Shown here in pieces: positions 12,163 through 33,377 of a DNA stretch of 64,000 nt. Every line of letters starts with the position of its first letter. Positions within the stretch are counted from its first letter, which is position 1. Location: positions 1-64,000 of the IMG/VR virus record IMGVR_UViG_3300035687_000003. The stretch is one strand, 5' to 3'. The notes under the pieces are model-generated. The model searched no databases. It was not told the DNA's origin and saw only the letters and a list, made by a program, of their open reading frames with translations. Origin of the DNA: a virus. The position numbers and the translations under genes are program-made.

Positions 12163-14739
12163 CTATTCGTCCTCTCCGGCCGACGGGATGACCGGCCAAC
12201 GGTCCAGGTGGTCGCCGCCGTCATCGGGGACGCCGTAGGCGCACTGGGCGCAGATGCTCAGGCCGTGCATGGTCCGGCTGTCACTGCCGCCGCAGCGGCG
12301 ACATTCCAGCCTTGGTCCTTCGACTACTCCGGCGGTCGGCGCATCACGATCTCCGATGCCAGGACCGCTGAGCCTCGAGCTGTCGGTGGCGTCCCGTGCT
12401 GAGCTTCCCGGGCGTCCATCGCCTCCGCGGTCAGTTGTTCCACTGTCGCTGTCAGTGTCCAGCCGTGGAGATCCGCGAAGGCTTCCAGCCGGGCACGGAT
12501 CTCCGGGTTCAGTGTGAGGTTCGTCGGTACCTTCCGGCGGCCCGCTGTGTTCCAGCTCCGAGTCATGGCCCCACCCTACTTTGCGCGCGCGCGTTTCGGT
12601 GTCAGCCTCGCGCGCAGGAACGCGCATGGCCCCACTGTCGCCACTGGCATAACTACCTGGTCCAGCAGTTAGGCCAGTGGCCCCACTGGTAGGCGCGCTG
12701 TCAGGCCACTCCCCAGTGGGGCCACCAGTGGGGCCACTAGTGGGGCCACTGTATATATGCTGGTCAGCAGCAGTAGATACAGTGGGGCCACCCCGCTCCC
12801 CCGTGCGCGCGAGGCCAGTGGCCGCACTGGCCCCACTGTCAGGCCACGCCGGTAGCGACCAGTAAGTGACCCGCGGGAACCCCTCGGCCGAGATCTTGAC
12901 CTTGAGGGAGCCGCGGGCACGGGTCAGCGTGCGCTCAGAGATCCCCGCCGCGTTCGCTGCTCGTTTCGCGTCGCTGGACTTCACCCGACCTTGCCCTAAG
13001 TAATCACGCAGCCAGTCCCGAGCCTCGTTGCGCTCAGACCGGTCAGACGCGCCCTCCCCGCCGTCCAGCAGGTCCCTGGCGTCGTCATCGGTGTCGCCCA
13101 GCCACGTCACCTTCCCCACCGACGTCGGACCCTCTGGTGTGTCCACCGTGGCCGGCTCGATCTGCAACGCCAGCGACGAGGTGTCCATCGGTGCCAGGTT
13201 CGACTTGGACCCCGTCAGGACCAGCCGGCCAGTGTCGGAGTCCAGCGCGATCGCCAGGGTGGACCGGGCGACCTGCGACCATGCGATCGACCCGAGAATC
13301 AGCTTCCCGGTGTCGCTGGATTCCCGCTTACCGAAGTGGACGATACCGAGTACTGCGCAGCCGGTCCGTTCACCCACTTTAGTGGCAATAGCTTCCAGCG
13401 CTTGACGCATCTGGCGGTCTTTATCACCATCCAGCTTCCCGTCGATCACGCTGGTCGCCGCGTCCAACACAACCATAACGGCGTTATGTTCCATTACCGC
13501 TTCGGCAAGTAGCTCAGTGTCGAATGGCAATACGATCGATGTCGCCGTATCGTCAGGATTGAGCGCGTTAAGGAATATCACTCGCGTCAGATCCGCGCCG
13601 GCTGCTACTAGCCGTGGGACGATAGTGAAATCACGGGCATCCTCGGAGTGGATGTAGACGACCACGCCAGGAATCCCATGTGACTCACCCATTAAATCGC
13701 CGCGCGTCACCTGTGCGGTCAATTCCACCGCGAGGGTAGATTTGCCTAACCCTTCGCGACCCGCGAGCAGTGTCAACCCGCCGAGTGGAATACGATTCTC
13801 CCAGAGCCATCGCGTTCGGCGCATAATCACCTCACTGGCATACACGGGTTGCAACCGACGCATCGGTGGATTGTCGTCAGAATGACTTTCCAGCTCAACG
13901 GGACCCGCTCGGTGGCCGTTAGATCCTATAGTCGGCACGGGTATAAGTTGGTCGAGGGTGAACCCAGCGTCAAGATGGTCCGAGACATCAGATTTAGGCG
14001 TGTCTAGCTTGCCTCGGACCAGCCTAACCGACTTAGCTACACCGGTCAGCAGGGCCACTGTGTGACGAGCGTGATTGTATCCGGCTTTATCGTAGTCAGC
14101 TATTACGGTAACATTAGCGCCGGCAAGCAATGGATTATATTCAGACAGCCAAGACGGTGGTGATGCGCCGTCCTCGGTAGTGGTAGCCACTTTACCTAGA
14201 GCGGCCAACCGATTGGCATCTTTCTCTCCCTCGCATATGAAGATATGCTCACCGTGAGCAACTCCATCGATCAACTCGGGGAGCCTGAAAAGCGTCTTGG
14301 GTACATTCGGGGGCCGCTTATAAACCCATTTGCCGTTCGGGCCGCGATGGCGGTAGATAAAGCCTTTATCTCTCTTACCGTCGCCGAGCATCCGGAGGCG
14401 CTGAAAACGTTCCGTACCATCCGGCGCACGGTACGGGTAGGTCTCTAGTATCGTAAACCCGTTTCTCGGGGCGGTTTCTCGGGGAGTAAATAAATCAGAT
14501 TCTCTCAATCCCAACGCAGCGCAAATATCGCTGGTACTGCATTCGGCACTGCGGCACTTGAGAAAAACGGTATCGAGTCCATGCTTATCAATGCCAGGGT
14601 CTACGGAAAGTGACGGGCGTCTGTCGTCATGTGCAGGGCATTGTGCGTCGAATCCACGTTTTGTGGCATGCATGGTGGACCCGTGTCGACGCAGTGCAGC
14701 GATGATACGGTCGAATGGAGTGAATGCGGCGGCTGTCAC
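12163..14739 (-). CDS. TOPRIM primase / RecA-type helicase with long tail
   Basis: An 858-aa product from GTG 14739. Near the N-terminus: CPAHDDRRPSLSV, as in zinc-binding primase heads. Then a TOPRIM domain (IFICEGEKDANRLAALG, VTVIADYDKAG). Residues about 310-540 are a RecA/AAA_25 helicase: Walker A AGREGLGKST, Walker B VVLDAATS. A short DNA-binding-like segment (SDAKRAANAAGISERTLTRARGSL) follows. From about residue 640 the protein is low complexity (Gly-Pro-Thr repeats, then Asp/Ser/Gly-rich) and ends in a CRRCGG...CAQC zinc ribbon. It would prime and unwind phage DNA. The tail carries both the repeats at 12627-12838 and an overprinted frame at 12324-12566. Confidence 0.8.
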   Translation of the reverse strand: MTAAAFTPFDRIIAALRRHGSTMHATKRGFDAQCPAHDDRRPSLSVDPGIDKHGLDTVFLKCRSAECSTSDICAALGLRESDLFTPRETAPRNGFTILETYPYRAPDGTERFQRLRMLGDGKRDKGFIYRHRGPNGKWVYKRPPNVPKTLFRLPELIDGVAHGEHIFICEGEKDANRLAALGKVATTTEDGASPPSWLSEYNPLLAGANVTVIADYDKAGYNHARHTVALLTGVAKSVRLVRGKLDTPKSDVSDHLDAGFTLDQLIPVPTIGSNGHRAGPVELESHSDDNPPMRRLQPVYASEVIMRRTRWLWENRIPLGGLTLLAGREGLGKSTLAVELTAQVTRGDLMGESHGIPGVVVYIHSEDARDFTIVPRLVAAGADLTRVIFLNALNPDDTATSIVLPFDTELLAEAVMEHNAVMVVLDAATSVIDGKLDGDKDRQMRQALEAIATKVGERTGCAVLGIVHFGKRESSDTGKLILGSIAWSQVARSTLAIALDSDTGRLVLTGSKSNLAPMDTSSLALQIEPATVDTPEGPTSVGKVTWLGDTDDDARDLLDGGEGASDRSERNEARDWLRDYLGQGRVKSSDAKRAANAAGISERTLTRARGSLKVKISAEGFPRVTYWSLPAWPDSGASAATGLARTGERGGPTVSTAADQHIYSGPTSGPTGGPTGEWPDSAPTSGATGLTAGPGSYASGDSGAMRVPAREADTETRARKVGWGHDSELEHSGPPEGTDEPHTEPGDPCPAGSLRGSPRLDTDSDSGTTDRGGDGRPGSSARDATDSSRLSGPGIGDRDAPTAGVVEGPRLECRRCGGSDSRTMHGLSICAQCAYGVPDDGGDHLDRWPVIPSAGEDE
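12324..12566 (-). CDS. Ribbon-helix-helix protein overprinted on primase tail
   Basis: An 80-aa frame on the same strand as the primase but in another reading frame, from ATG 12566 (GGGTGGGG upstream) to TAG 12324. It has a clear strand-helix-helix pattern: KVPTNLTLNPEIRARLEAF, then DLHGWTLTATVEQLTAEAMDAREAQ, as in plasmid- and phage-type ribbon-helix-helix proteins. The overlapped primase residues are Asp/Ser/Gly-rich and without pattern, which suggests that the RHH frame is the older or more constrained one. Both could be translated. Confidence 0.55.
   Translation of the reverse strand: MTRSWNTAGRRKVPTNLTLNPEIRARLEAFADLHGWTLTATVEQLTAEAMDAREAQHGTPPTARGSAVLASEIVMRRPPE
12627..12838. repeat. 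Cluster of seven GTGGGGCCA-core repeats inside primase gene
   Basis: Three tandem 12-bp units lie at 12713-12724, 12725-12736 (both CCAGTGGGGCCA) and 12737-12748 (one mismatch), plus four more cores at 12627-12637, 12678-12689, 12780-12790 and 12828-12838 in both orientations. A TGTATATATG stretch, unusual for this GC-rich region, follows the tandem block. On the coding strand they encode Gly-Pro-Thr linkers. Either linker expansion or iterons of an in-gene replication origin. Confidence 0.65.
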
Positions 14740-23937: not shown

Positions 23938-24296
23938 GGCGACTCCGCTTCGATACGAGCTGTGACAATTAACCGAGTACCAACCGGAAAGTCTTCCGCA
24001 TACGCCATGAATCCCGGCCCTGACTGTATCCCCGATTTCAATAGTGGGGATCCCTCGTCTGCCCAGTACCGATGATTAGATTCGGATTTAGAAGTGACGA
24101 CCATAACGTGAATCTTTTCTGTCGCAACTGAGCTGAGTATTTCGTGCGCACGCTTATGCCGCATGCACATCCATTCTTTACGCAACGCTTTCAATTCAGC
24201 GAGTTCACGCTGCGAAGCGTAATCACTACATCCGCTCTCTACACAGCCTGGATAAGCACATGTGTACCAGAGCGTACCGCCTCTTCGCCTGCTCAT
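23934..24296 (-). CDS. Hypothetical 120-aa cysteine-containing protein
   Basis: ATG 24296 overlaps the RecT-like stop (ATGA). The first 50 residues have CAYPGCVESGC and later CMRHKRAHE, a plausible zinc site; the second half is strand-rich (IHVMVVTSKSE, GTRLIVTARIEAE). Co-translation with the recombination genes is the only functional hint. Confidence 0.6.
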   Translation of the reverse strand: MSRRRGGTLWYTCAYPGCVESGCSDYASQRELAELKALRKEWMCMRHKRAHEILSSVATEKIHVMVVTSKSESNHRYWADEGSPLLKSGIQSGPGFMAYAEDFPVGTRLIVTARIEAESP

Positions 24297-25678
24297 GATG
24301 TGCTCTCCTGCGACATCTGTTCCATTTGCTCAACTAGCCGGCCTTCCCGCCGGTAGCCTTCCAGCGCGACAATTACCTTCGCGAGCTCCAGATCAGTCAG
24401 GCCATCGGACGTGGTGACGGCTGGCACCTTGACGAGCAGTCGGTTGAGGATGAGTAGCCGCGTTGCCCGGCCCACGGCGGTGTCCGTGATCCCACCTTCA
24501 CCGAGCCGCTTGAACATCCGCTTGCGAAGCTCGTCTCGTGTTCTACTCTCGGCCAGCTGCTCCGCATCGAGGTCATCGGGTGACGCGGCATCGGGGTCCT
24601 GCTCGCCGGATCTTTCGCCGATCACCGCGAGGGCCTGCGGCTTGGCTGCCTTGATCCGTTCGTGCAGCTCGGTGTTCTCGGGTTCCGCGACGAGAGCGGA
24701 GTGGTAGGTCCCGTACAGTCCCTCAAGGTCCCCGGCTGCTACGGACTCCTCGATCGCAGCATCCCAGTCGGCGTCAGTGAGACCGGCCGTGGGTGCGGGC
24801 TCAGACGGTGCGGCCCGCGTAGGTGGCGGCTCTACGGGCGGTTCAGCCGGGCGGACAGGCATTTCCGAATCGTCCGCTATCTCAGCACTCGTCGCGCCGT
24901 TCTCATTGGATTCGACCGGCTCAGTTCGGTCTTTGATTGCAGTCACTGCGGCCCTAATCAATCCAAGTGCCTCTTTATTGGTAGGGTCGTCGCGACGAAT
25001 TTGATCCCATAGCCGCTTGAGTCCCGAAAGGTCGTCGGCGGCTTCGCGCTGAGCGATCTCGGCATTCCAGTCTCTTCCGTTTCTGTTGCCTTCCGCTGTG
25101 ACTCGCGTGGCCGTTGCTTGCACCGGTTGACCCTCGCCGTCCACGTCTACGCCCAGTTCTTCCGGTGTGTAGTGCAGGCCGCATAGCACCTCTTCGCAGG
25201 CGTCGCGTGCACACTCGGAAATGGCGCGAGCCTTGAGCATCGCCGCTGGATAATTCTTCCAGACCGGCTTGCTGGCAAGACCGGCTTGCCTTGCGCGTGC
25301 TATCGTCCATTCGGACCGGAAAACAAAGTCTGGATCATCAGAACGGACGATTTCTGCGGTGGCCTTCTCGTCATTGCCTGTAATCCGCAACCGATGCCCA
25401 GCCCGTCGGACTAGCGCCGACATGAGTGCGGCCGATGCTGATGGCTTGCCTTCGATCACGTGGATACCGGTGATCGCTGCCATTGGAGCTAGACCGAGCA
25501 TCTGCGCGTACTCGTACGCAAACAGGATGTTTGCTGGATTCTTCCGAAAATGCGTGGGCAGTAGCCCGGATTCTGCGAGATACCGCGCGTACTCAATTTT
25601 TTGGGCAATTGTCACTTGCTGAGTGGGTATGCTTGAAACGATGGCGACGTCGTTATTTCCGTTCTTATCAGTGATCAT
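24293..25678 (-). CDS. recT: RecT-like single-strand annealing protein
   Basis: A 461-aa product. Residues 20-190 match the RecT fold: YARYLAESGLLPTHFRKNPANILFAYEYAQMLGL, then GIHVIEGKPSASAALMSALVRRAGHRLRI, and WKNYPAAMLKARAISECARDACEEVLCGLHYTPEELG. The rest is Pro/Glu-rich linker and helical regions, longer than the usual ~270-330 residues. It would anneal complementary single strands in phage recombination together with the exonuclease at 26135. ATG 25678 overlaps the HNH gene by 11 bases. Confidence 0.8.
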   Translation of the reverse strand: MITDKNGNNDVAIVSSIPTQQVTIAQKIEYARYLAESGLLPTHFRKNPANILFAYEYAQMLGLAPMAAITGIHVIEGKPSASAALMSALVRRAGHRLRITGNDEKATAEIVRSDDPDFVFRSEWTIARARQAGLASKPVWKNYPAAMLKARAISECARDACEEVLCGLHYTPEELGVDVDGEGQPVQATATRVTAEGNRNGRDWNAEIAQREAADDLSGLKRLWDQIRRDDPTNKEALGLIRAAVTAIKDRTEPVESNENGATSAEIADDSEMPVRPAEPPVEPPPTRAAPSEPAPTAGLTDADWDAAIEESVAAGDLEGLYGTYHSALVAEPENTELHERIKAAKPQALAVIGERSGEQDPDAASPDDLDAEQLAESRTRDELRKRMFKRLGEGGITDTAVGRATRLLILNRLLVKVPAVTTSDGLTDLELAKVIVALEGYRREGRLVEQMEQMSQESTS

Positions 25679-26138
25679 CCTGTAGCTCCTTCGCGTAGTT
25701 CCTGTTAGCTCGATTGCGGTTACATGTCAGGCAGTAGCGATTAAATGTGTTACCGTTGCGACGGATTCCGTCAAGGGGATGACCGCAGCGCCGTCCCGTG
25801 ACACGCTTGGCAGCTGCACGACGATTATTTTCTAGTTGTGTTACCACTTCAAGATGAAGCGGATTTACACATCTCCTATGTAGGCAGACAGTGCCGCCGC
25901 GACACAATTTATCCAGGTTGTGACATTTATGGTCGACGTGCAGGCCGTCCAGAATTGGCCCGATATGTAGAATATAGGACGCGCGATGGGCATACATTGA
26001 TTTGCCGTCTAACGAGATTTGTCCGTACCCATTAGGCAGTATGTAGCCATTCCATTGATGGCACCCATTGGCGTTAATCTCGACTTTCGCCGCCATGGCT
26101 GCGCGTCGCGCGTCGTGCGATTGCGGACGACCTGTCAT
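25668..26138 (-). CDS. HNH endonuclease (HNH_3-like)
   Basis: A 156-aa product from ATG 26138, overlapping the exonuclease stop (ATGA). It shows GYGQISLDGKSMYAHRASYILHIG, HVDHKCHNLDKLC, CLHRRCVNPLHLEVV and then LENNRR, the usual HNH zinc-supported catalytic core. A C-terminal zinc ribbon (GHPLDG...RYCLTCNRNR) follows. Probably a homing-type nuclease; its perfect embedding by ATGA and ATGATCACTGA overlaps between the exonuclease and RecT genes shows good adaptation to the operon. Confidence 0.8.
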   Translation of the reverse strand: MTGRPQSHDARRAAMAAKVEINANGCHQWNGYILPNGYGQISLDGKSMYAHRASYILHIGPILDGLHVDHKCHNLDKLCRGGTVCLHRRCVNPLHLEVVTQLENNRRAAAKRVTGRRCGHPLDGIRRNGNTFNRYCLTCNRNRANRNYAKELQDDH

Positions 26139-26965
26139 GCTGACTCCAGTTCTCTGATTGCCCATCGTGGCAAGCTCACTGTCACTGGGCCGTCAGCGTA
26201 GCCTGGCCAGTGGTCGAATGTCTTGCACTGATAATACAACTCGATCGCCTCACGATTCTGGGCCCGACCGTAGGCCAGCATCTCCTCATCGGGAGTGGCC
26301 ACGGTCACGACGTAGGGTGGTGTCTTCTCTTGAAAAATGAAAGTGAACTCCGGCGGGTAGTCGGCCAGTCCGACATCGACCACCGCATCCTGGTACCAGG
26401 GTGCCTGCATGAAGTAGCCGTAGTTTACCATTGATTTCGCTATCGCTGACGGCGCGGCCGAGTTGCAGGTCTTATAGTCGATAACATCTCCGTTACGGAG
26501 CAGGTAATCCAACCGGGCCCGTCGCGGTACCTCCGTCGCCTCGTCTACCCAGAACAAACTTTGCTCCGGCTGGCCCATTTCGTGAAGCAGTTCAGCTGCG
26601 TGAGGATGTTGGAACAGTGCGTCTACCATGTCCTGGGCTTGGATATGGTCGCTCCGTAGGATCGGCACTTCGCCGGCCGTGTACGCGGCCTTGCGCGCTC
26701 CCTGCGCAGCCTTCGTCTGCCAGCTGTCAGCGTCGATCACCTTAACGGGGTCGCCGATGCCGAAGAGTAAGCCGTGGACGACGTGGCCGAAATCCCAGTC
26801 CGCTTTCGGCGGCTCCCCGTGATCCACCCAGTGCCGGTAGTGCGCCGGGCAGGACGGCGGCAGGAGTTTGCGGGCACCGGTGTGTGACAGGCTCCCGCCC
26901 GGCCAAGGGTCGGCGTGGTAGGTGGCAGCGGGGATGTCGTAGACGCCGGGTTGGTCGATCATCAC
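26135..26965 (-). CDS. PD-(D/E)XK exonuclease (RecE/DUF3799-like)
   Basis: A 276-aa product starting at GTG 26965 or ATG 26962. Early motif SLSHTGARKLLPPSCPAHYRHW with a following FGHVVHGLLFG, then catalytic RRARLDYLLRNGDVIDYKTCNSA (D...DYK) and a helix with YGYFMQAPWYQDAV, the normal order for Cas4/RecE-like nucleases. It would resect DNA to supply ssDNA for the RecT-like protein, as RecE-RecT or lambda Exo-Bet do. Confidence 0.8.
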   Translation of the reverse strand: MMIDQPGVYDIPAATYHADPWPGGSLSHTGARKLLPPSCPAHYRHWVDHGEPPKADWDFGHVVHGLLFGIGDPVKVIDADSWQTKAAQGARKAAYTAGEVPILRSDHIQAQDMVDALFQHPHAAELLHEMGQPEQSLFWVDEATEVPRRARLDYLLRNGDVIDYKTCNSAAPSAIAKSMVNYGYFMQAPWYQDAVVDVGLADYPPEFTFIFQEKTPPYVVTVATPDEEMLAYGRAQNREAIELYYQCKTFDHWPGYADGPVTVSLPRWAIRELESA

Positions 26966-27075
26966 TCAGAATCTCGCTTTCCAGTGATCTCGAACGCGCC
27001 GAAACGGCCCCGGCGGGCGTCAATCCAGGGTTGCGAACCGGACTCATAGTGACCGAGCAGGATGGCGGCAGTCAT
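26962..27075 (-). pseudogene. 37-aa stub resembling a YqaJ exonuclease N-terminus
   Basis: ATG 27075 overlaps the previous stop (ATGA) and the frame ends at TGA 26962 touching the next start. The product contains LLGHYESGSQPWIDARRGRFGAFEI, very like the first strand and motif 'G.Y..GS..W...R.G..GGSEI' that opens YqaJ-type viral recombinases. Nothing else of such an enzyme follows; a different exonuclease family starts immediately. It may be the remnant of a replaced exonuclease, kept for translational coupling. Confidence 0.55.
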
Positions 27076-27251
27076 GGCTTGATCTGTGATCTCAGCATCA
27101 CCGTCAAACTGTCTAACGGATAAAGCTCCGTGAATGGGTATCCATCGAATTGCACGTCCGCACTTGCCCGATGTTGCACGGTACGGAGCTGGATAACGGT
27201 GCCAATGCGCCCATAGGCAGCGACCCGGTCGTTTGGTTGAATCTCGTTCAC
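27072..27251 (-). CDS. Small KOW-like protein
   Basis: GTG 27251 overlaps the DnaQ-like stop (GTGA), with GAAGGGA upstream. The 59-aa product has NDRVAAYGRIGTVIQLRTV and ADVQFDGYPFTELYPLDSLT, a strand pattern like a KOW/SH3 barrel. A binding module of unknown partner. Coupled to the exonuclease genes. Confidence 0.55.
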   Translation of the reverse strand: MNEIQPNDRVAAYGRIGTVIQLRTVQHRASADVQFDGYPFTELYPLDSLTVMLRSQIKP

Positions 27252-28003
27252 GATACTGTTCCCTTCATCGGCCATCCGTCCGCACTTGCCACCACACCGT
27301 CCGCTCGCTCCATGATCCCCGGTCGCTCCGACGGCTCCGCTTGCGCTACCACCTTGTCGCGCAGGTACGTCGCGAACGACAATTGACTCTCCCGGTACCA
27401 GACAGCCTGCACGACTTGCAGCTCGTCCAGCGACATCGCTCCGATCTCCGGGTAACACTTCGCAAGCTTCCACGCCAGACGCATCGCGGCCAAGGTGTCA
27501 GCGCTGGCACTGTGCGCCTCCAGTAAGATAATGCCGTAATGCTGGCAGGTGTCGACCAGCTTACGTGACCCGCGGCGGTAGCGATCGCAGTGTTTGTCTA
27601 TTACCAGCGGGTCGATCACTGGTCCGACTGGCCCGTACGCGAGCAGGCCTTGCGGCTTACCGCAGTGCCGGATGAGTTCGTGGTGCAGTACTGTCAGGTC
27701 GTAGCTGGCATTGTATGCGATGATCGGCAGACCCTTGGCCCATGCTTTCGTTACCTCTTCGGCGACTTCTGTTGCCACTTCAGCGGGGTCACGGCCGTAC
27801 CGACGCGCATCTTCCGTGTTGATTCCATGTTTCTCCGTCGCTTCGGCCGGGATCTCTACTCCCGGGTCAGCCGTCCACTCGCGGACGTTCGTTTCCCGGC
27901 CGACGACGACGATCACGCTTGCGGTGACGATCCGGGCTTCGGTGGGCAGCGGCGAAGTTGTTTCGAAATCCAGCCCTGCGATCGGTTCGTCGATCCAACT
28001 CAC
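27248..28003 (-). CDS. DnaQ-like 3'-5' exonuclease (DEDDh)
   Basis: A 251-aa product from GTG 28003 with AAGGGGA upstream. The DEDD motifs are visible: LDFETTSPLP (Exo I, D and E), AYNASYDLTVLHHEL (Exo II), and HSASADTLAAMRLAWKLA (Exo III with H and D). Resembles the polymerase III epsilon subunit and phage proofreading or RNase T-like nucleases. It sits beside recombination genes, so end trimming or proofreading are both possible. Confidence 0.8.
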   Translation of the reverse strand: MSWIDEPIAGLDFETTSPLPTEARIVTASVIVVVGRETNVREWTADPGVEIPAEATEKHGINTEDARRYGRDPAEVATEVAEEVTKAWAKGLPIIAYNASYDLTVLHHELIRHCGKPQGLLAYGPVGPVIDPLVIDKHCDRYRRGSRKLVDTCQHYGIILLEAHSASADTLAAMRLAWKLAKCYPEIGAMSLDELQVVQAVWYRESQLSFATYLRDKVVAQAEPSERPGIMERADGVVASADGWPMKGTVS

Positions 28004-28016
28004 GTTTGGATTCCCC

Positions 28017-28436
28017 TTAGCGTGTCGCGGTGTCTGCCAGTCGGCCTTCAGTGGCCATACGGTATGTGTCGCATGGCCAGCGGTCGCGACATTCCACGCA
28101 GTAGTTTCCGACTAACCCGCCTCCTGCACTCTCCCGGCAATGCCACGTGGCGATTCGATCCAACCGCAGCTGGAGTTCTGCAATAGCGTAGGCGTCTCCG
28201 TGTGCGCCGATCACTGCCGCGCGAGCTTCCGCTAGTGCCGCCTGCTCGTCGTTGAGCAGCGCGGAGAGTCCCGTGACGGCCAGGGAGGCGACTTGGACCT
28301 GCCAGGGTGCGACGATCCAGTCAGGTGAACCCACGGGAGTTATTGCGAAAGATCCACCTTGCGCTTTAGCTGACGCTAGTGCCTCGTGGATCGCCTCGTG
28401 CGCGGCCTGCAGCACGTCAGGGGTGAGCATGGTCAT
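28017..28436 (-). CDS. Hypothetical 139-aa protein with C-terminal cysteines
   Basis: ATG 28436 overlaps the ribbon-helix-helix stop (ATGA). The product is largely helical (VLQAAHEAIHEALASAKAQG, ALLNDEQAALAEARAAVIG, AYAIAELQLRLDRIATWHC) and ends with YCVECRDRWPCDTYRMA, a zinc-like cluster recurrent in actinophage small proteins. Role unknown. Confidence 0.6.
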   Translation of the reverse strand: MTMLTPDVLQAAHEAIHEALASAKAQGGSFAITPVGSPDWIVAPWQVQVASLAVTGLSALLNDEQAALAEARAAVIGAHGDAYAIAELQLRLDRIATWHCRESAGGGLVGNYCVECRDRWPCDTYRMATEGRLADTATR

Positions 28437-28627
28437 GGGGAGCCTTCCGGTGAGGTTGGCAGGGTAGGTGGCGGGTCTGACATGCCAGCCCGCAAGTGAC
28501 GCAAGCTGGGTAGATGTTGATCCAGCAGCCACAGGATGTGAGCGTTCGCGGAACGTCGCTCCCGTGCAGCCGCCAATTTCAACCGCTCATGGAGATCGTC
28601 CGGGAACCGCACGTTCAGGTTGGACAC
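28433..28627 (-). CDS. Ribbon-helix-helix (Arc-like) protein
   Basis: A 64-aa product from GTG 28627. SNLNVRFPDDLHERLKLAAARERRSANAHILWLLDQHL is a textbook Arc/CopG strand-helix-helix. The C-terminal 20 residues are proline-rich. The gene heads the leftward recombination operon and its promoter forms one arm of a symmetric divergent pair, so it is probably an autorepressor controlling both directions. The message seems leaderless. Confidence 0.75.
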   Translation of the reverse strand: MSNLNVRFPDDLHERLKLAAARERRSANAHILWLLDQHLPSLRHLRAGMSDPPPTLPTSPEGSP

Positions 28628-28663
28628 GGTGCCAGTGTAGGGCTAGAGTGGTGCCGTGTCCAA
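28620..28663. promoter_or_regulatory. Mirror-symmetric divergent leaderless promoters
   Basis: Plus strand: TTGGAC (28620-28625), 18 bp, TAGAGT (28644-28649), 6 bp, GTG 28656. Minus strand: TTGGAC (28663-28658), 18 bp, TACACT (28639-28634), 6 bp, GTG 28627. Each -35 overlaps the opposite start codon, and both genes begin GTGTCCAACC. The outer arms are a perfect 12-bp inverted repeat that extends to 15 of 17. A dimeric repressor such as the adjacent ribbon-helix-helix protein could close both promoters at once. Confidence 0.7.
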
Positions 28664-29016
28664 CCCACCTCCTGGCATCCCGCACCGCCGTCATCCCTGC
28701 CCACCCCTGCCCCTGGCGGGTAGACGTGGAGCCCGGCCGGTTCCCGCTCTGCCGCTACGAGGCTCTGCGCGCGACGTCAGGTGCCCCGGGCCGGGAAGCT
28801 CCCCTCAGTGCGCCCATGTTCGCCTGTCACAAGACTGCGGAAGGTGCCGAGCAGGCGTGCGCAGGATGGCTGGCCGCGGTCGGTCGGAAGCGCATCGGAG
28901 TGCGTGCCGCAGTGGCGCTTGGCCGTTTGCCGGTCTCGGTCCTGGACCCCGGCGAGGGCTGGCCGCAGCTGCACACTGGGTATGACGAGATGGTCGCAGC
29001 GAAAGTGATCTACTGA
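28656..29016 (+). CDS. DUF6283-like protein with apparent +1 frameshift
   Basis: From codon 28708 on, the frame encodes a DUF6283-type zinc protein: CPWRVDVEPGRFPLCRYEALR, then APMFACHKTAEGAEQACAGWLAAVG and IGVRAAVALGRLP. The natural start, GTG 28656 of the leaderless promoter, is in another frame that reads ...RHPCPP up to a CCCC run at 28704-28707. Dropping one C joins them as HPCPP-CPWRVD, which restores the family's CxxCPWR motif. The break may be a sequencing slip, a real mutation or +1 recoding. The 5' 17 codons are therefore listed as part of this gene. Confidence 0.6.
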
Positions 29017-29027
29017 AAGGGGCTCTC

Positions 29028-29240
29028 GTGAGCGAGCGCACGGAAATCAATGGTGTACCCGTTGAGATGTATGGCACATGGTGCCCACACGGCCACCATG
29101 TCTTTGTGGTCAATCCAGCTGACACTCGTCCGAACCCGACGACGATTGCGGCTGACCCGTGGCCATGCACTCAAGGGTGCACTGCGGAAGGAATTAACGC
29201 TGAAATGGAAGCCGAGATCGACGAATGGCTAAACCCATGA
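29028..29240 (+). CDS. Hypothetical 70-aa protein
   Basis: GTG 29028 follows GAAAGGGG. It has WCPHGHHVFVVNPADTRP and PWPCTQGCTAEGINAEMEAEIDEW; the cysteines and histidines may hold one zinc. The C-terminal segment is an acidic helix. No known family. Confidence 0.6.
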   Translation: MSERTEINGVPVEMYGTWCPHGHHVFVVNPADTRPNPTTIAADPWPCTQGCTAEGINAEMEAEIDEWLNP

Positions 29241-29273
29241 GTCTTCCACCTAATGAGATGAGGATGTAGCGTC

Positions 29274-29528
29274 GTGACAGCTTTCGATCCGCAAACTGCG
29301 ACTGAGAATCAAGTATTGCGGAATAAGGCATATTGGCAAGCTCACGATATCGCCGATGAATTAGGGAAGCTTGCTACCAGAATAGCTCATGAAGCTGCGC
29401 CGCTTCGCAATGAATCACGTCCAGCGGCTTCCATTGTCGCCGATGTGGTCAATGCGTACACTCAGGGCAGTAATGCTATCGGCGCGATATTCTGGTCGAT
29501 GATCCGCGAACTTGAGCGAATGAAGTGA
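29274..29528 (+). CDS. Hypothetical 84-aa helical protein
   Basis: GTG 29274 after GAGGATG. Entirely helical in appearance (ENQVLRNKAYWQAHDIADELGKLATRIAHEA; ASIVADVVNAYTQGSNAIGAIFW). Its stop overlaps the RuvC-like start. It could be an adaptor for that nuclease, but this is only positional. Confidence 0.55.
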   Translation: MTAFDPQTATENQVLRNKAYWQAHDIADELGKLATRIAHEAAPLRNESRPAASIVADVVNAYTQGSNAIGAIFWSMIRELERMK

Positions 29529-30133
29529 TGAGCCTCCCGCGTATGATGAAAATCGGTGGCCTAGATTACTCTATGACCAATTCCGGAATTGCAATCCTGA
29601 CTCGTCGTGTCACTGGTGAATGTGTTATGCACACTACTACGGTTCGCAGTACTGGTCATCGCGGGGATTCGCTGCCTGTTCGTCGGCAGAGATTGGCTAC
29701 TCTTGCCGCCGACGTGGTGCACCATCTGGGCACCTGCGACCTGGTCGTCATTGAAGGTGTCATCCGCGGGGCGACGGGGGCGCTGCTGGACCGCTACGGT
29801 GGACTATGGTTCATCATGGACCCGCTCATCCGTCGCGAGGTTCCGATCGCTGTAGCCGGTCCCGGTTCCGCTAAGAAGGCGATCACGGACAACGGTCGGG
29901 CGGACAAGGCGCTCATGTCCCGATACATCACGAAACTCTGGCCGGACCTAGAAACGGCTAACGAGCATGAAAGCGACGCCGCGGGGCTAGCGCATCTCGG
30001 GGCCGTGGCTCTCGGATGGAACGTGTCCACTTTGGAGCGGCACAAAGCGGTGAAGTGGACGGAATGGCCGGAGTTCGGGCCAACGGCCCATCTGGTCGCA
30101 TTGCCGATGGATTATGCGGAGGAGGTTTCGTGA
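29525..30133 (+). CDS. RuvC-like Holliday junction resolvase
   Basis: A 202-aa product (ATG 29528 preferred). The RNase H-fold acidic residues are visible: IGGLDYSMTNSGIAIL (first D), LVVIEGVIRG (E), and ESDAAGLAHLGAVALG at the end (D). In between PIAVAGPGSAKKAITDNGRADKALM matches the family's lysine-rich strand. RuvC-type phage nucleases resolve branched DNA before packaging. It fits the recombination genes across the divergent promoter. Confidence 0.75.
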   Translation: MMSLPRMMKIGGLDYSMTNSGIAILTRRVTGECVMHTTTVRSTGHRGDSLPVRRQRLATLAADVVHHLGTCDLVVIEGVIRGATGALLDRYGGLWFIMDPLIRREVPIAVAGPGSAKKAITDNGRADKALMSRYITKLWPDLETANEHESDAAGLAHLGAVALGWNVSTLERHKAVKWTEWPEFGPTAHLVALPMDYAEEVS

Positions 30134-30294
30134 CCAGGTGGAACCATGCGTTTATCGCGGGATGCACCTTGTCGATCGTATCAGTGGTTGCAAACTCGTC
30201 GGAAGCTTATCGTCAGGTCATGGTATATGCGTGGGAGGTTTTCCTGGTCGCCTTAATCGTCGACGCCGTAATTGGTGGCTACCGGGATAGGTGA
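30130..30294 (+). CDS. Small two-span membrane protein
   Basis: GTG 30130 overlaps the RuvC-like stop. The 54-aa product has hydrophobic stretches at about residues 6-20 (AFIAGCTLSIVSVVA) and 34-49 (AWEVFLVALIVDAVIGG) and a basic end. A small membrane hairpin; function unknown. A 10-bp palindrome GGTGATCACC overlaps its stop. Confidence 0.6.
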   Translation: MTRWNHAFIAGCTLSIVSVVANSSEAYRQVMVYAWEVFLVALIVDAVIGGYRDR

Positions 30295-30347
30295 TCACCT
30301 ATTCGCAGGCAATGCTCCGTTCAGAATACGACAGAGGAGAGTAAATA

Positions 30348-30848
30348 ATGGCAGGCGAAGTGACTGTGACGATTGTCGGCACAGTATGTGCTGACCCGGA
30401 GATGCGGTTTATTTCCAGCGGTGATGGGGTGGTTAACTTTACGATCGCTTCCAACTCCCGCCGGCTCAATAAGGATACGGGCAAGTGGGAAGATTCGGAT
30501 GCATTGTTCATGCGGTGCAATGCTTGGCGGCAGCTCGCGGAGAACATTAACGAAAGCCTGTCGAAAGGTGACCGAGCTATTGTCACCGGTCGACTTAAGC
30601 AACGCAGCTATACGACAAAGGAAGGTGAGAAGCGTACCGTCGTTGAGCTGGAGGTCGACGAGATCGGGCCTAGTCTCAAGTGGGCTACGGTCAAGGTGAA
30701 CAAGGCTACCCGTTCCGGCGGCAAGGCAACCCAGGATGACGACCAGTGGGCCTCCGCTCAGCCGGCCAAGGCGTCTGCGGGTGGTGACAGCTGGGATGAT
30801 GACCCGCCGCCGTTCTTCCGGTCCGAACGGTTCGACAATGAGTTCTGA
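30348..30848 (+). CDS. ssb: Single-stranded DNA-binding protein
   Basis: A 166-aa product with AGAGGAGAG upstream. The OB-fold core is clear: VTIVGTVCADPEMRFISSGDGVVNFTIASN, WEDSDALFMRCNAWRQLAENINESLSKGDRAIVTGRLKQRSYTTKEGEKRTVVELEVDEIGPSLKWA. The acidic tip is DDDPPPFFRSERFDNEF, with a DDPPPF segment recalling bacterial SSB C-termini but not terminal. It coats ssDNA in replication and recombination and may recruit partners. Confidence 0.9.
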   Translation: MAGEVTVTIVGTVCADPEMRFISSGDGVVNFTIASNSRRLNKDTGKWEDSDALFMRCNAWRQLAENINESLSKGDRAIVTGRLKQRSYTTKEGEKRTVVELEVDEIGPSLKWATVKVNKATRSGGKATQDDDQWASAQPAKASAGGDSWDDDPPPFFRSERFDNEF

Positions 30849-31032
30849 CATGGGCTGCAGCAGATGGCTCGACAATGGTGCGCTATGCGGGAAGCCGGTC
30901 GCATGGGGCAGGCCGGTGACCATACTTCTCGACCCAGTACTTTGCCGGTACGGAACATATATGGCGAAAGTATGTTCCGAGCATCGGCAGGAATACGATA
31001 ACGCAATGGCTGCGATGGGTATAGGGAAGTGA
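30838..31032 (+). CDS. Small cysteine-containing protein
   Basis: 64-aa product starting at ATG 30838 (overlapping SSB) or ATG 30850. Pattern CSRWLDNGALCGKPVAW...LCRYGTYMAKVCSEH: four cysteines and a histidine spaced like a small zinc domain found repeatedly in phages. Role unknown. Confidence 0.6.
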   Translation: MSSDMGCSRWLDNGALCGKPVAWGRPVTILLDPVLCRYGTYMAKVCSEHRQEYDNAMAAMGIGK

Positions 31033-31053
31033 GTCCTGACATGGGTTCAAGTC

Positions 31054-31371
31054 GTGATTGACCCGGTCAGCCTCGCGGTAGGCGCTATAATCTTTCTCGG
31101 CGGCCTAGCGGCTGGTCGTCTCATTTACCGAACTAGCGTCTTAATCGGTTCAAACGTGAAGTCGCCTGTAGCTAAATGCTCGTGCGCGCATGGTTGTGGC
31201 GCGCACGAACCCAATGGCGGCGCCTGCAATGAGCAGGTTAAGCGGGCGTCAAGGTGGAATTATGAAGGAGACGCAATTGGGTACGAGTGGGTTGGTTGTC
31301 CGTGTCGCGCGTATGATGGGCCGGAGCCTCTTCCTCGGGTATGGTCTACCAACCCGCCATTATTGCCATGA
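31054..31371 (+). CDS. Membrane-anchored zinc-knuckle protein
   Basis: A 105-aa product from GTG 31054. Residues 4-22 are hydrophobic (PVSLAVGAIIFLGGLAAG), predicting one N-terminal span, followed by a cysteine-rich module KCSCAHGCGAH...GACNEQV...VGCPCRAYDGP. Its stop overlaps the next start (ATGA). Unknown family. Confidence 0.6.
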   Translation: MIDPVSLAVGAIIFLGGLAAGRLIYRTSVLIGSNVKSPVAKCSCAHGCGAHEPNGGACNEQVKRASRWNYEGDAIGYEWVGCPCRAYDGPEPLPRVWSTNPPLLP

Positions 31372-31685
31372 CTACGAGTCCTGACCCGCTATTAGCCTAC
31401 GTCACTTGCCATGACCTAGCCGCTCAAGGTGCCACCTACCGGCAGATCGACCACTGGACAAACCGTGGGTGGTTGGTAGCTGCCAACTCGTTTCCAGGGT
31501 CCGGGAACCAACGGAGATACCCACTGGACCAGCTGGACGTCGTCCGTAAGATGGTGCGGCTCACTGCTGCGGGCATTGCCCCTGCAGCGGCGCACCGGGC
31601 CATCCGCGACGGTGGTTACCTGGCCGCTGGCGTACGTGTGATTATTGAAGATGAACCACAGGACCTGACCGAGGGAACGGAATGA
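31368..31685 (+). CDS. MerR-like helix-turn-helix protein
   Basis: A 105-aa product from ATG 31368. After a short lead: TYRQIDHWTNRGWLVAANSFPGSGNQRRYPLDQLDVVRKMVRLTAAGIAPAAAHRAIR, which is the MerR winged-helix pattern (Y..IDyW...G.l......GSG..R.y...dl...r.). It lacks a long effector domain, as with phage excisionase or control proteins. DNA binding is likely. Confidence 0.7.
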   Translation: MTTSPDPLLAYVTCHDLAAQGATYRQIDHWTNRGWLVAANSFPGSGNQRRYPLDQLDVVRKMVRLTAAGIAPAAAHRAIRDGGYLAAGVRVIIEDEPQDLTEGTE

Positions 31686-31695
31686 GGAGACCGTA

Positions 31696-32181
31696 ATGGC
31701 TAACGCAGAAGTGATCAGGGAGACCCTCGCTGTAGCGCGCGAAAACCGTCACCGGTTCAATATGAGGACGTGGATAAGCGGCCAGGGTAATCCGGACGCC
31801 ACGTCCTGGCAGGAATGCGGCACGACTGCGTGCCTCGGCGGTTGGCGGTGCCTGCTCGACGGACTGCGGCCCAAGTTGTACCCGGATGGATACGTAACGA
31901 CCGAGTTCATTGACCCGTCTACGGGAAAGACGGTGCACCCAGAAGACTGGGCGATGCAGCGTATGGAGCTCCATCGCGGCGAAGCTGAGGCACTACTTCA
32001 GGCTACGCATCTCGGTGATGATATTGATGCCGTGGAGAGGCTTGCAGAGCTAGTTATCTCCGGTGAATGGGTTGGATGCGAAAGCTGCGGCGGTAATGGC
32101 GGCTGCGGCGACTGCGACAACCTAGGGATCGTGCGTTATTCCGGTGGAGCTGCTGACCACCGAAGCGACGGGAGCATGTGA
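31696..32181 (+). CDS. Conserved phage protein with TTACLGGW motif
   Basis: A 161-aa product with GAGGAGACCGTA before ATG 31696. RFNMRTWISG, then ECGTTACLGGWRCLL, matches a family recurring in actinophages, whose role is unknown to me. A Gly/Cys-rich tail CESCGGNGGCGDCDNLG looks like a DnaJ-type zinc finger fragment. Confidence 0.65.
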   Translation: MANAEVIRETLAVARENRHRFNMRTWISGQGNPDATSWQECGTTACLGGWRCLLDGLRPKLYPDGYVTTEFIDPSTGKTVHPEDWAMQRMELHRGEAEALLQATHLGDDIDAVERLAELVISGEWVGCESCGGNGGCGDCDNLGIVRYSGGAADHRSDGSM

Positions 32182-32435
32182 TGGCAACTAGAAACGAGCA
32201 CGGCGGCTGGGATCTCACGACCGAAGAAGCGTCCGATTTAGAACCTGCAGAGATCGAAGAAGTGTCCGATTGGGAACCTTCGGTAACTATCCCCTTCAAG
32301 CAACTATTCGACCGAGATCACTGCGATGCTCAGCGCGGGATTTACCTCTACGCCTGCATTATCTGCGGACGGATCACGCCCAACCGGATCACTCACTTAC
32401 AGACCGAGCACGGAGCGACCAACGTAGATCATTAA
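32178..32435 (+). CDS. Hypothetical acidic zinc-finger protein
   Basis: The 84-aa product (ATG 32181, overlapping the previous stop) has an acidic half with a repeated S-D-L/W-E-P motif (ASDLEPAEIEEVSDWEP) and a C-terminal C2H2-like finger: CIICGRITPNRITHLQTEHG. The finger suggests nucleic-acid contact; the rest is unknown. Confidence 0.6.
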   Translation: MMATRNEHGGWDLTTEEASDLEPAEIEEVSDWEPSVTIPFKQLFDRDHCDAQRGIYLYACIICGRITPNRITHLQTEHGATNVDH

Positions 32436-32474
32436 CCTGGTGGAGTCGGCGGCGGTCAGGGTCTCCGGGAGGCC

Positions 32475-32885
32475 TTGCATGTTCACCTGGCACTGTGCTC
32501 TACGCTGCGGCGCGTGCTCCGTACGTCACGTCAGCCCCCCTGTTACCGCGCTCAACCGCCGACCGCGCCGGACCTGGCGCAGGTTCATGCTGACGACGAG
32601 ATGCTCACCCGGCTATCCCGTAGTCACTACACGGGCACCGACGCGTTGAGCCGACGGTTCGCGGCGCTGCGAGATCGCGTGAGGGGCCAGTCGGCGGAAG
32701 ATGGGCAGCCCGCGCCGTCCACTACCGTGATCTGCGCACTGCTCCTGTTGACCTTGACGTGCTTCGCGTGCGCCACGGTAGTCATGATCACCTCTAAGCG
32801 GCTCGGCGCGTTCATGCTGGCCGTGACCGTGATGCCCTTGATCGCTGCGGGAGTTATCAGCAGGTGGGTCAGGCTAAAAGGTTAG
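32475..32885 (+). CDS. Two-span membrane protein, start uncertain
   Basis: The frame ends with two hydrophobic spans (about 20 residues each: TTVICALLLLTLTCFACATVVMI and GAFMLAVTVMPLIAAGVI) after a polar, helical N-terminal part. A TTG at 32475 has GGGAGG close by; ATG 32599 is an alternative. A 56-aa frame from ATG 32479 overlaps in another register and fits the same ribosome binding site, so the true 5' end is unclear. Confidence 0.5.
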   Translation: MHVHLALCSTLRRVLRTSRQPPCYRAQPPTAPDLAQVHADDEMLTRLSRSHYTGTDALSRRFAALRDRVRGQSAEDGQPAPSTTVICALLLLTLTCFACATVVMITSKRLGAFMLAVTVMPLIAAGVISRWVRLKG

Positions 32886-32999
32886 TTTCACCTGGACGGA
32901 TGCACTAACGACGGCTCTAGCTGTCTACGCGAATGCCATGGTCCTCCAGCTTAGGTTACTATCGCGGTCACTAACCACTCACCGCTTAGGAGGCGCATC

Positions 33000-33377
33000 A
33001 TGGCCCAGGTAACCACCGTCGAGTTGATCGACGACCTGGACGGTTCGGCCGCAGAGGAGACAGTAAAGTTCGCGCTGGACGGCAAGCCATACGTCATCGA
33101 CTTGTCGGGGCATAACGCGGGCGTGCTCCGCGACATCCTCGGTGACTACGTGGGCGTTGCCCGCCTTGACCCTGAGGCGCTACTGGCCGCTGGTCGTTCT
33201 CGTGTGACCCGTAAGCCGGGTAGCGGTGCTCCCGCAGCCAACCGCGAGCAGACCGCCGCTGTGCGCGAGTGGGCACGGCGCAACGGCCACCAGGTGTCCG
33301 ACCGGGGCCGGATCTCTGCCACTGTGCAGGCCGCGTTCGATGATGCGCACCGGTCCCCGCTCGCGGTAGCAGGGTGA
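33000..33377 (+). CDS. lsr2: Lsr2-like nucleoid-associated silencer
   Basis: A 125-aa product with TTAGGAGG before ATG 33000. The N-terminal dimerisation domain matches Lsr2: [50 protein letters not shown]. The C-terminal part has [26 protein letters not shown], including the RGR minor-groove hook. Lsr2 bridges AT-rich DNA and silences foreign genes in actinobacteria. A phage copy may silence host or own genes, or interfere with host Lsr2. It strongly supports an actinobacterial host. Confidence 0.9.

Follow-up and report, generated by a model that had tools for sequence, protein, structure and literature searches.

Two gene clusters of a virus diverge from a 48-bp segment that is nearly palindromic and appears to carry both of their promoters and both of their start codons. 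Is this symmetry an operator at which one protein controls both clusters, or is it only what two interleaved promoters leave behind? The window analyzed here comprises bases 1-64,000 of a 73,409-base IMG/VR virus record (G+C content 60%), and its relatives by protein match are phages of Gordonia, Rhodococcus, Thermobifida, and other actinobacteria. Leftward from the segment, on the minus strand, a gene for a ribbon-helix-helix (RHH) protein is followed by a cluster (24293-28436) that contains an ORF at 28436-28017 and genes for a DnaQ-like exonuclease, a RecE/exonuclease VIII-like protein, and two proteins that we take, from reading their ORFs, to be HNH-like and RecT-like. Rightward, on the plus strand, a gene of the DUF6283 family precedes a cluster (29028-33377) with two small ORFs, genes for RuvC-like and SSB proteins, more ORFs and, further right, a gene for Lsr2, which is a nucleoid protein.

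Two divergent promoters with leaderless-type starts

On the plus strand, TTGGAC (28620-28625) is followed after 18 bp by TAGAGT (28644-28649) and, 6 bp further on, by a GTG codon (28656-28658). The minus strand repeats this arrangement with TTGGAC (28663-28658), 18 bp, TACACT (28639-28634), 6 bp, and GTG (28627-28625). The rightward (28620-28649) and leftward (28634-28663) promoters are both sigma-70-like and face outward, and each -35 element touches the opposing GTG. The -35 register is ambiguous on both sides, since it can be read as TTGGAC with an 18-bp spacer or as TGGACA with a 17-bp spacer. A promoter scan of positions 28300-29000 (701 bp) returns two sites, exactly these, where 0.1 are expected; both have 9 of 12 consensus bases, in the TGGACA-17 register. 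Every statement that the original prediction made about this sequence layout, including the inverted repeat described below, is borne out.

The RNAs would be expected to start at 28656 and 28627, on the first base of each GTG codon. Leaderless transcripts are the natural reading of these sites, because a TANNNT -10 element lies six bases upstream of GTG on both sides, which is the actinobacterial leaderless type of spacing, and neither GTG is preceded by a Shine-Dalgarno (SD) or other purine-rich sequence beyond a chance GGTG that adjoins the right start. SD motifs of the AAGG/AGGAG type occur before most of the downstream genes checked, and the RecT, SSB, Lsr2, terminase, portal, and capsid genes all have one. 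Each GTG is also the earliest start in its own frame, with homology beginning just past it. Across the window, TANNNT elements 6-8 bp before candidate starts are just slightly enriched (3, 5, and 6 cases versus about 2.5 per spacing). This does not establish leaderless starts as a widespread feature, and the case rests on the two sites at this locus. Two divergent leaderless promoters are very probably present here, and we infer that their transcripts start at the two GTG codons. The sequence likewise gives good support to the claims that the left product is an RHH protein and that two RNA polymerases would exclude each other.

The ribbon-helix-helix protein

The leftward promoter opens directly into a gene for a 64-amino acid protein (28433-28627, minus strand), which is a candidate autorepressor. 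Its profile scores place it among the Arc/Mnt/HicB RHH proteins, as they exceed the curated cut-offs of two Pfam families (FitA-like_RHH, 27.1 bits with a cut-off of 27.0; HicB, 25.6 bits with a cut-off of 21). It also matches Arc-like PHROGs, and its RHH matches include antitoxin and partition families. Among solved structures, Mnt comes nearest in sequence, although the match is not significant (E = 0.42), and an N-x-R ribbon pattern is common to both proteins in the alignment. The matches to RHH models start at residues 1-8 of the product and the putative ribbon, NLNVRFP, runs from residue 3. This supports the GTG at 28627 as the true start, because a later one would cut the DNA-binding strand. 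A structure predicted for the single chain has helices at residues 12-38 and 40-49 (mean pLDDT 74.7); the beta-strand forms only in the dimer. Sequence searches of phages and viral contigs found no relatives of this protein, and consequently no operator is available for comparison.

The right-hand gene and its frame break

The DUF6283 gene (28656-29016, plus strand) has a +1 frame break in the recorded sequence. The ORF in the frame of GTG 28656 (109 amino acids) has no family match, and the conserved DUF6283 body (PF19800) lies one frame on. All 10 of the plasmid and phage relatives compared have the motif PCxxCPWR in one frame, often after PHRRR or something similar (e.g., FPHRRRPCAECPWR). 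In the window this motif is split across two frames: the 28656 frame reads IPHRRHPCPP, and the frame after it reads CPWRVD. The DUF6283 score is 60.3 bits for the body alone, 64.5 bits from a start at 28651, and 74.3 bits when the reading crosses the break. Because the conserved N-terminus is found in the 28656 frame and the cross-break score is higher, we conclude that the gene starts at GTG 28656 and breaks frame at the run of C residues at 28704-28707. Starts in the body frame at 28651 or 28648, which would abolish the symmetry, were rejected because PHRRxPC and the first cysteine of the CxxC motif are in the 28656 frame. Programmed +1 frameshifting at CCC-C was also rejected, since it is seen in no relative compared. 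A mutation or a sequencing or assembly error is therefore likelier, and a programmed frameshift is the least likely origin of the break. Frame errors do not pervade the record, as every long gene scanned is intact.

Symmetry beyond the promoter elements

The near-palindrome spans 48 bp (28618-28665) with 19 of 24 pairs matching, and it is a candidate shared operator. Its outer arms form a perfect 12-bp inverted repeat (28618-28629 and 28654-28665) that extends to 15 of 17 positions. The 17-bp left arm (28618-28634) contains the -35 element of the rightward promoter and the first ~10 bases of the predicted leftward transcript; the right arm (28649-28665) contains the leftward -35 element and the first ~10 bases of the predicted rightward transcript. 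No other even-centered 48-bp dyad in the window scores as high (runner-up 17), and 19 pairs were reached in none of 20 simulated 64-kb sequences (Markov-1). In a repeat search with free choice of arm length, a cluster of repeats at 12.6-12.8 kb comes out ahead of the dyad, which ranks fourth. Outside the dyad, the window shows hardly any enrichment of the 12-mer. The record contains no third exact copy of it, and a second copy of the candidate operator was not found there.

Much of this symmetry is the direct result of having two promoters in the same place. The -35, -10, and GTG elements on both sides force 11 of the 24 pairs, and thus about 11 of the 19 that match. With these elements fixed and the other positions randomized at the base composition of the window, a dyad of at least 19 pairs is uncommon (p ~0.007), and it is rarer still (p = 0.001) when only TTG and the C beside the start codon are fixed in the -35 element. 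The symmetry is largely, but not wholly, forced by the two interleaved promoters, and the modest surplus is consistent with an operator.

The same numbers are open to a simpler reading, in which the symmetry is mostly a by-product of the interleaving, the RHH protein regulates something else in the manner of an antitoxin or partition protein, and polymerase exclusion is the sole coupling between the two operons. The families among its profile matches fit this explanation, as does the large share of forced pairs. However, the perfect 12-bp arms reach past the promoter elements in both directions (by GG on the outside, and by GG and then CCA on the inside), and the promoters need none of these extra matches. 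We consider this explanation rather unlikely. A recent inverted duplication of the promoter-start region, with no operator role, would account for the sharp end of the likeness between the two halves at 28618 and 28665. That likeness ends less than 10 bases from each start codon, however, and the coding sequences are unrelated beyond codon 3-4. The differences between the halves are also non-random, with TANNNT kept in both -10 elements, and a duplication of this kind is quite improbable.

The repeat cluster mentioned above consists of direct and inverted copies of CAGTGGGGCCACTG at 12560-12860, in the tail of a primase-like ORF. It adjoins a leaderless-type ATG at 12566 on the minus strand (TAGGGT-GGGGCC-ATG), which opens an 80-amino acid ORF with no significant family match. 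These copies are possibly iterons or an operator array.

The layout in other genomes and in the nearest relative

The original prediction proposed, as checks, the same paired layout in other actinophages and conservation of the symmetry in relatives. The layout was not found in other phages or genomes, and the second check goes against the prediction in the nearest relative found. The exact TTGGAC mirror pattern has no match in 2.9 million viral contigs and none in GTDB contigs. A version with the consensus -35 element (TTGACA) has 74 viral matches, 66 of which share one spacing and correspond to one coding motif, LTFDNTIVIVDECQ, which from reading we take to be PhoH-like. None of the viral TTGACA matches has two convincing ORFs, and they were rejected as examples of the layout. 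In these loci (L016-L089) the coding motif mimics two divergent leaderless promoters and is a trap for pattern scans. GTDB yields 26 TTGACA matches, in which the two ORFs are mostly absent. Two alphaproteobacterial loci (L103, 6678-6718, and L104, 1323-1363) have mirror-symmetric TTGACA promoters, and in both a gene for a TetR-like regulator begins at the leaderless-type start on the left. They may represent convergent use of the mirror layout, with a long ORF on both sides in L103 only.

Single-protein searches of viral contigs for relatives of the RHH, DUF6283, and DnaQ proteins found none by short exact peptides, which is a weak method. In the 86 loci where a RecT or exonuclease relative is present, there is no RHH or DUF6283 relative and one divergent pair, which is unrelated (L157). 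A DNA-level search of the region against phage records also gave no match. The nearest relative found is locus L126, with protein identities of 69% for the exonuclease, 59% for DnaQ, and 46% for RuvC. It has the same divergent organization, with RuvC on one side and the DnaQ-exonuclease genes on the other. The RHH and DUF6283 genes are absent from it, the dyads in its gap do not exceed 14 of 24 pairs, and an SD-like GAAAGGATG precedes its rightward gene. The divergent gene order can thus occur without the palindrome, and conservation of the symmetry fails in this locus. The joint absence of the RHH gene, the DUF6283 gene, and the palindrome from operons that are otherwise present is, in this one relative, as expected for a regulator that brings its own operator. 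The two loci also differ in the position of the terminase gene, which is ~7.5 kb from RuvC in the window; a terminase-like gene lies ~1.2 kb past RuvC in L126 (1406-4518).

Predicted joint repression of the two operons

We propose that the 48 bp may be a compact promoter-operator with two interleaved, outward-facing sigma-70-type promoters. Each -35 element would overlap the start of the gene on the other side, and the two mRNAs would begin with the first base of GTG. Since each arm combines one -35 element with approximately positions +1 to +10 of the other transcript, an RHH oligomer would block both promoters from whichever arm it occupied. The RHH protein is the first leftward product, and it therefore probably represses its own operon together with the DUF6283/RuvC/SSB operon once it has accumulated. 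We infer that an early burst of expression could be followed by shut-off of both operons. Binding of the RHH protein to the palindrome is plausible by analogy and from the modest surplus of symmetry. That the gene travels with its own operator and shuts off both operons jointly by autorepression is the reading toward which we lean, with somewhat better than even confidence. More tentatively, a single RHH arm might double as the -35 element of one promoter and as the opening codons of the leaderless gene on the other side, such that both operons are blocked by one binding event. Both products begin with Met-Ser-Asn, and under the single-arm reading they would do so because the operator is written into both N-termini.

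The original prediction went further and suggested that the locus could act as a bistable switch, with the recombination genes on one side and the RuvC/SSB/Lsr2 genes on the other. The two polymerase sites do overlap completely, and the EcoRV model indicates that transcription can be coupled when a regulator is bound at overlapping divergent promoters (PMC5333194). However, a switch of the lambda type has a repressor heading each side, and a recognizable DNA-binding regulator is found here on the left side only, which gives negative rather than double-negative feedback. The first gene on the right encodes DUF6283, which is not a known DNA-binding family. With no second repressor recognized there, the wiring alone gives no two stable states. 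At basal strength, polymerase competition alone proved too weak in the E. coli bidirectional promoters tested (PMC12825309), and both operons contain DNA-metabolism genes that are likely to be needed together. We regard the bistable switch as most unlikely and favor joint repression by the RHH protein.

Comparison with known systems

The P22 immI region has a divergent promoter layout on which phage RHH repressors act, and to our knowledge its starts are not mirror-symmetric leaderless ones. This region holds mnt, arc, and ant (PMC2629481). Like immI, where Mnt and Arc control ant, the present locus combines a small phage RHH protein with a compact divergent-promoter region, although its RHH protein is a candidate for this role, other genes would be controlled, and homology between the two regions is not demonstrated. 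The cluster O mycobacteriophages (Corndog) have divergent SigA-like promoters, PL1 and PR2, in one gap, and both of their mRNAs are likewise predicted to be leaderless. The Corndog gap is AT-rich, however, with 37 A/T in 39 nucleotides, and no palindrome spanning both start codons is reported (PMC4351075). The bidirectional promoters of Warman and Grainger share the pseudo-symmetric DNA, divergent transcription, and mutual exclusion of two polymerases (PMC10268837, PMC12825309). Their start sites are 7-25 bp apart, usually 18, and they have -10 positions in common (PMC10268837), whereas the present locus has separate -10 and -35 elements for each promoter, with a 4-bp gap between the -10 boxes, and a distance of 29 bp between the expected starts. 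In control regions of EcoRV-type restriction-modification systems, too, divergent promoters overlap and the gene on one side encodes an autoregulator (PMC5333194).

What is new in this locus is that two promoters, their two start codons, and a palindrome are fully interleaved within 48 bp. If RHH binding is shown, then this would be near the most compact divergent control region possible, one in which leaderless starts let promoter, operator, and coding start occupy a single short segment. If the proposed model is true, then leaderless translation would free phages from 5' leaders and let N-terminal codons serve as operator, and the locus would be a small system in which polymerase exclusion could be tested in actinobacteria.
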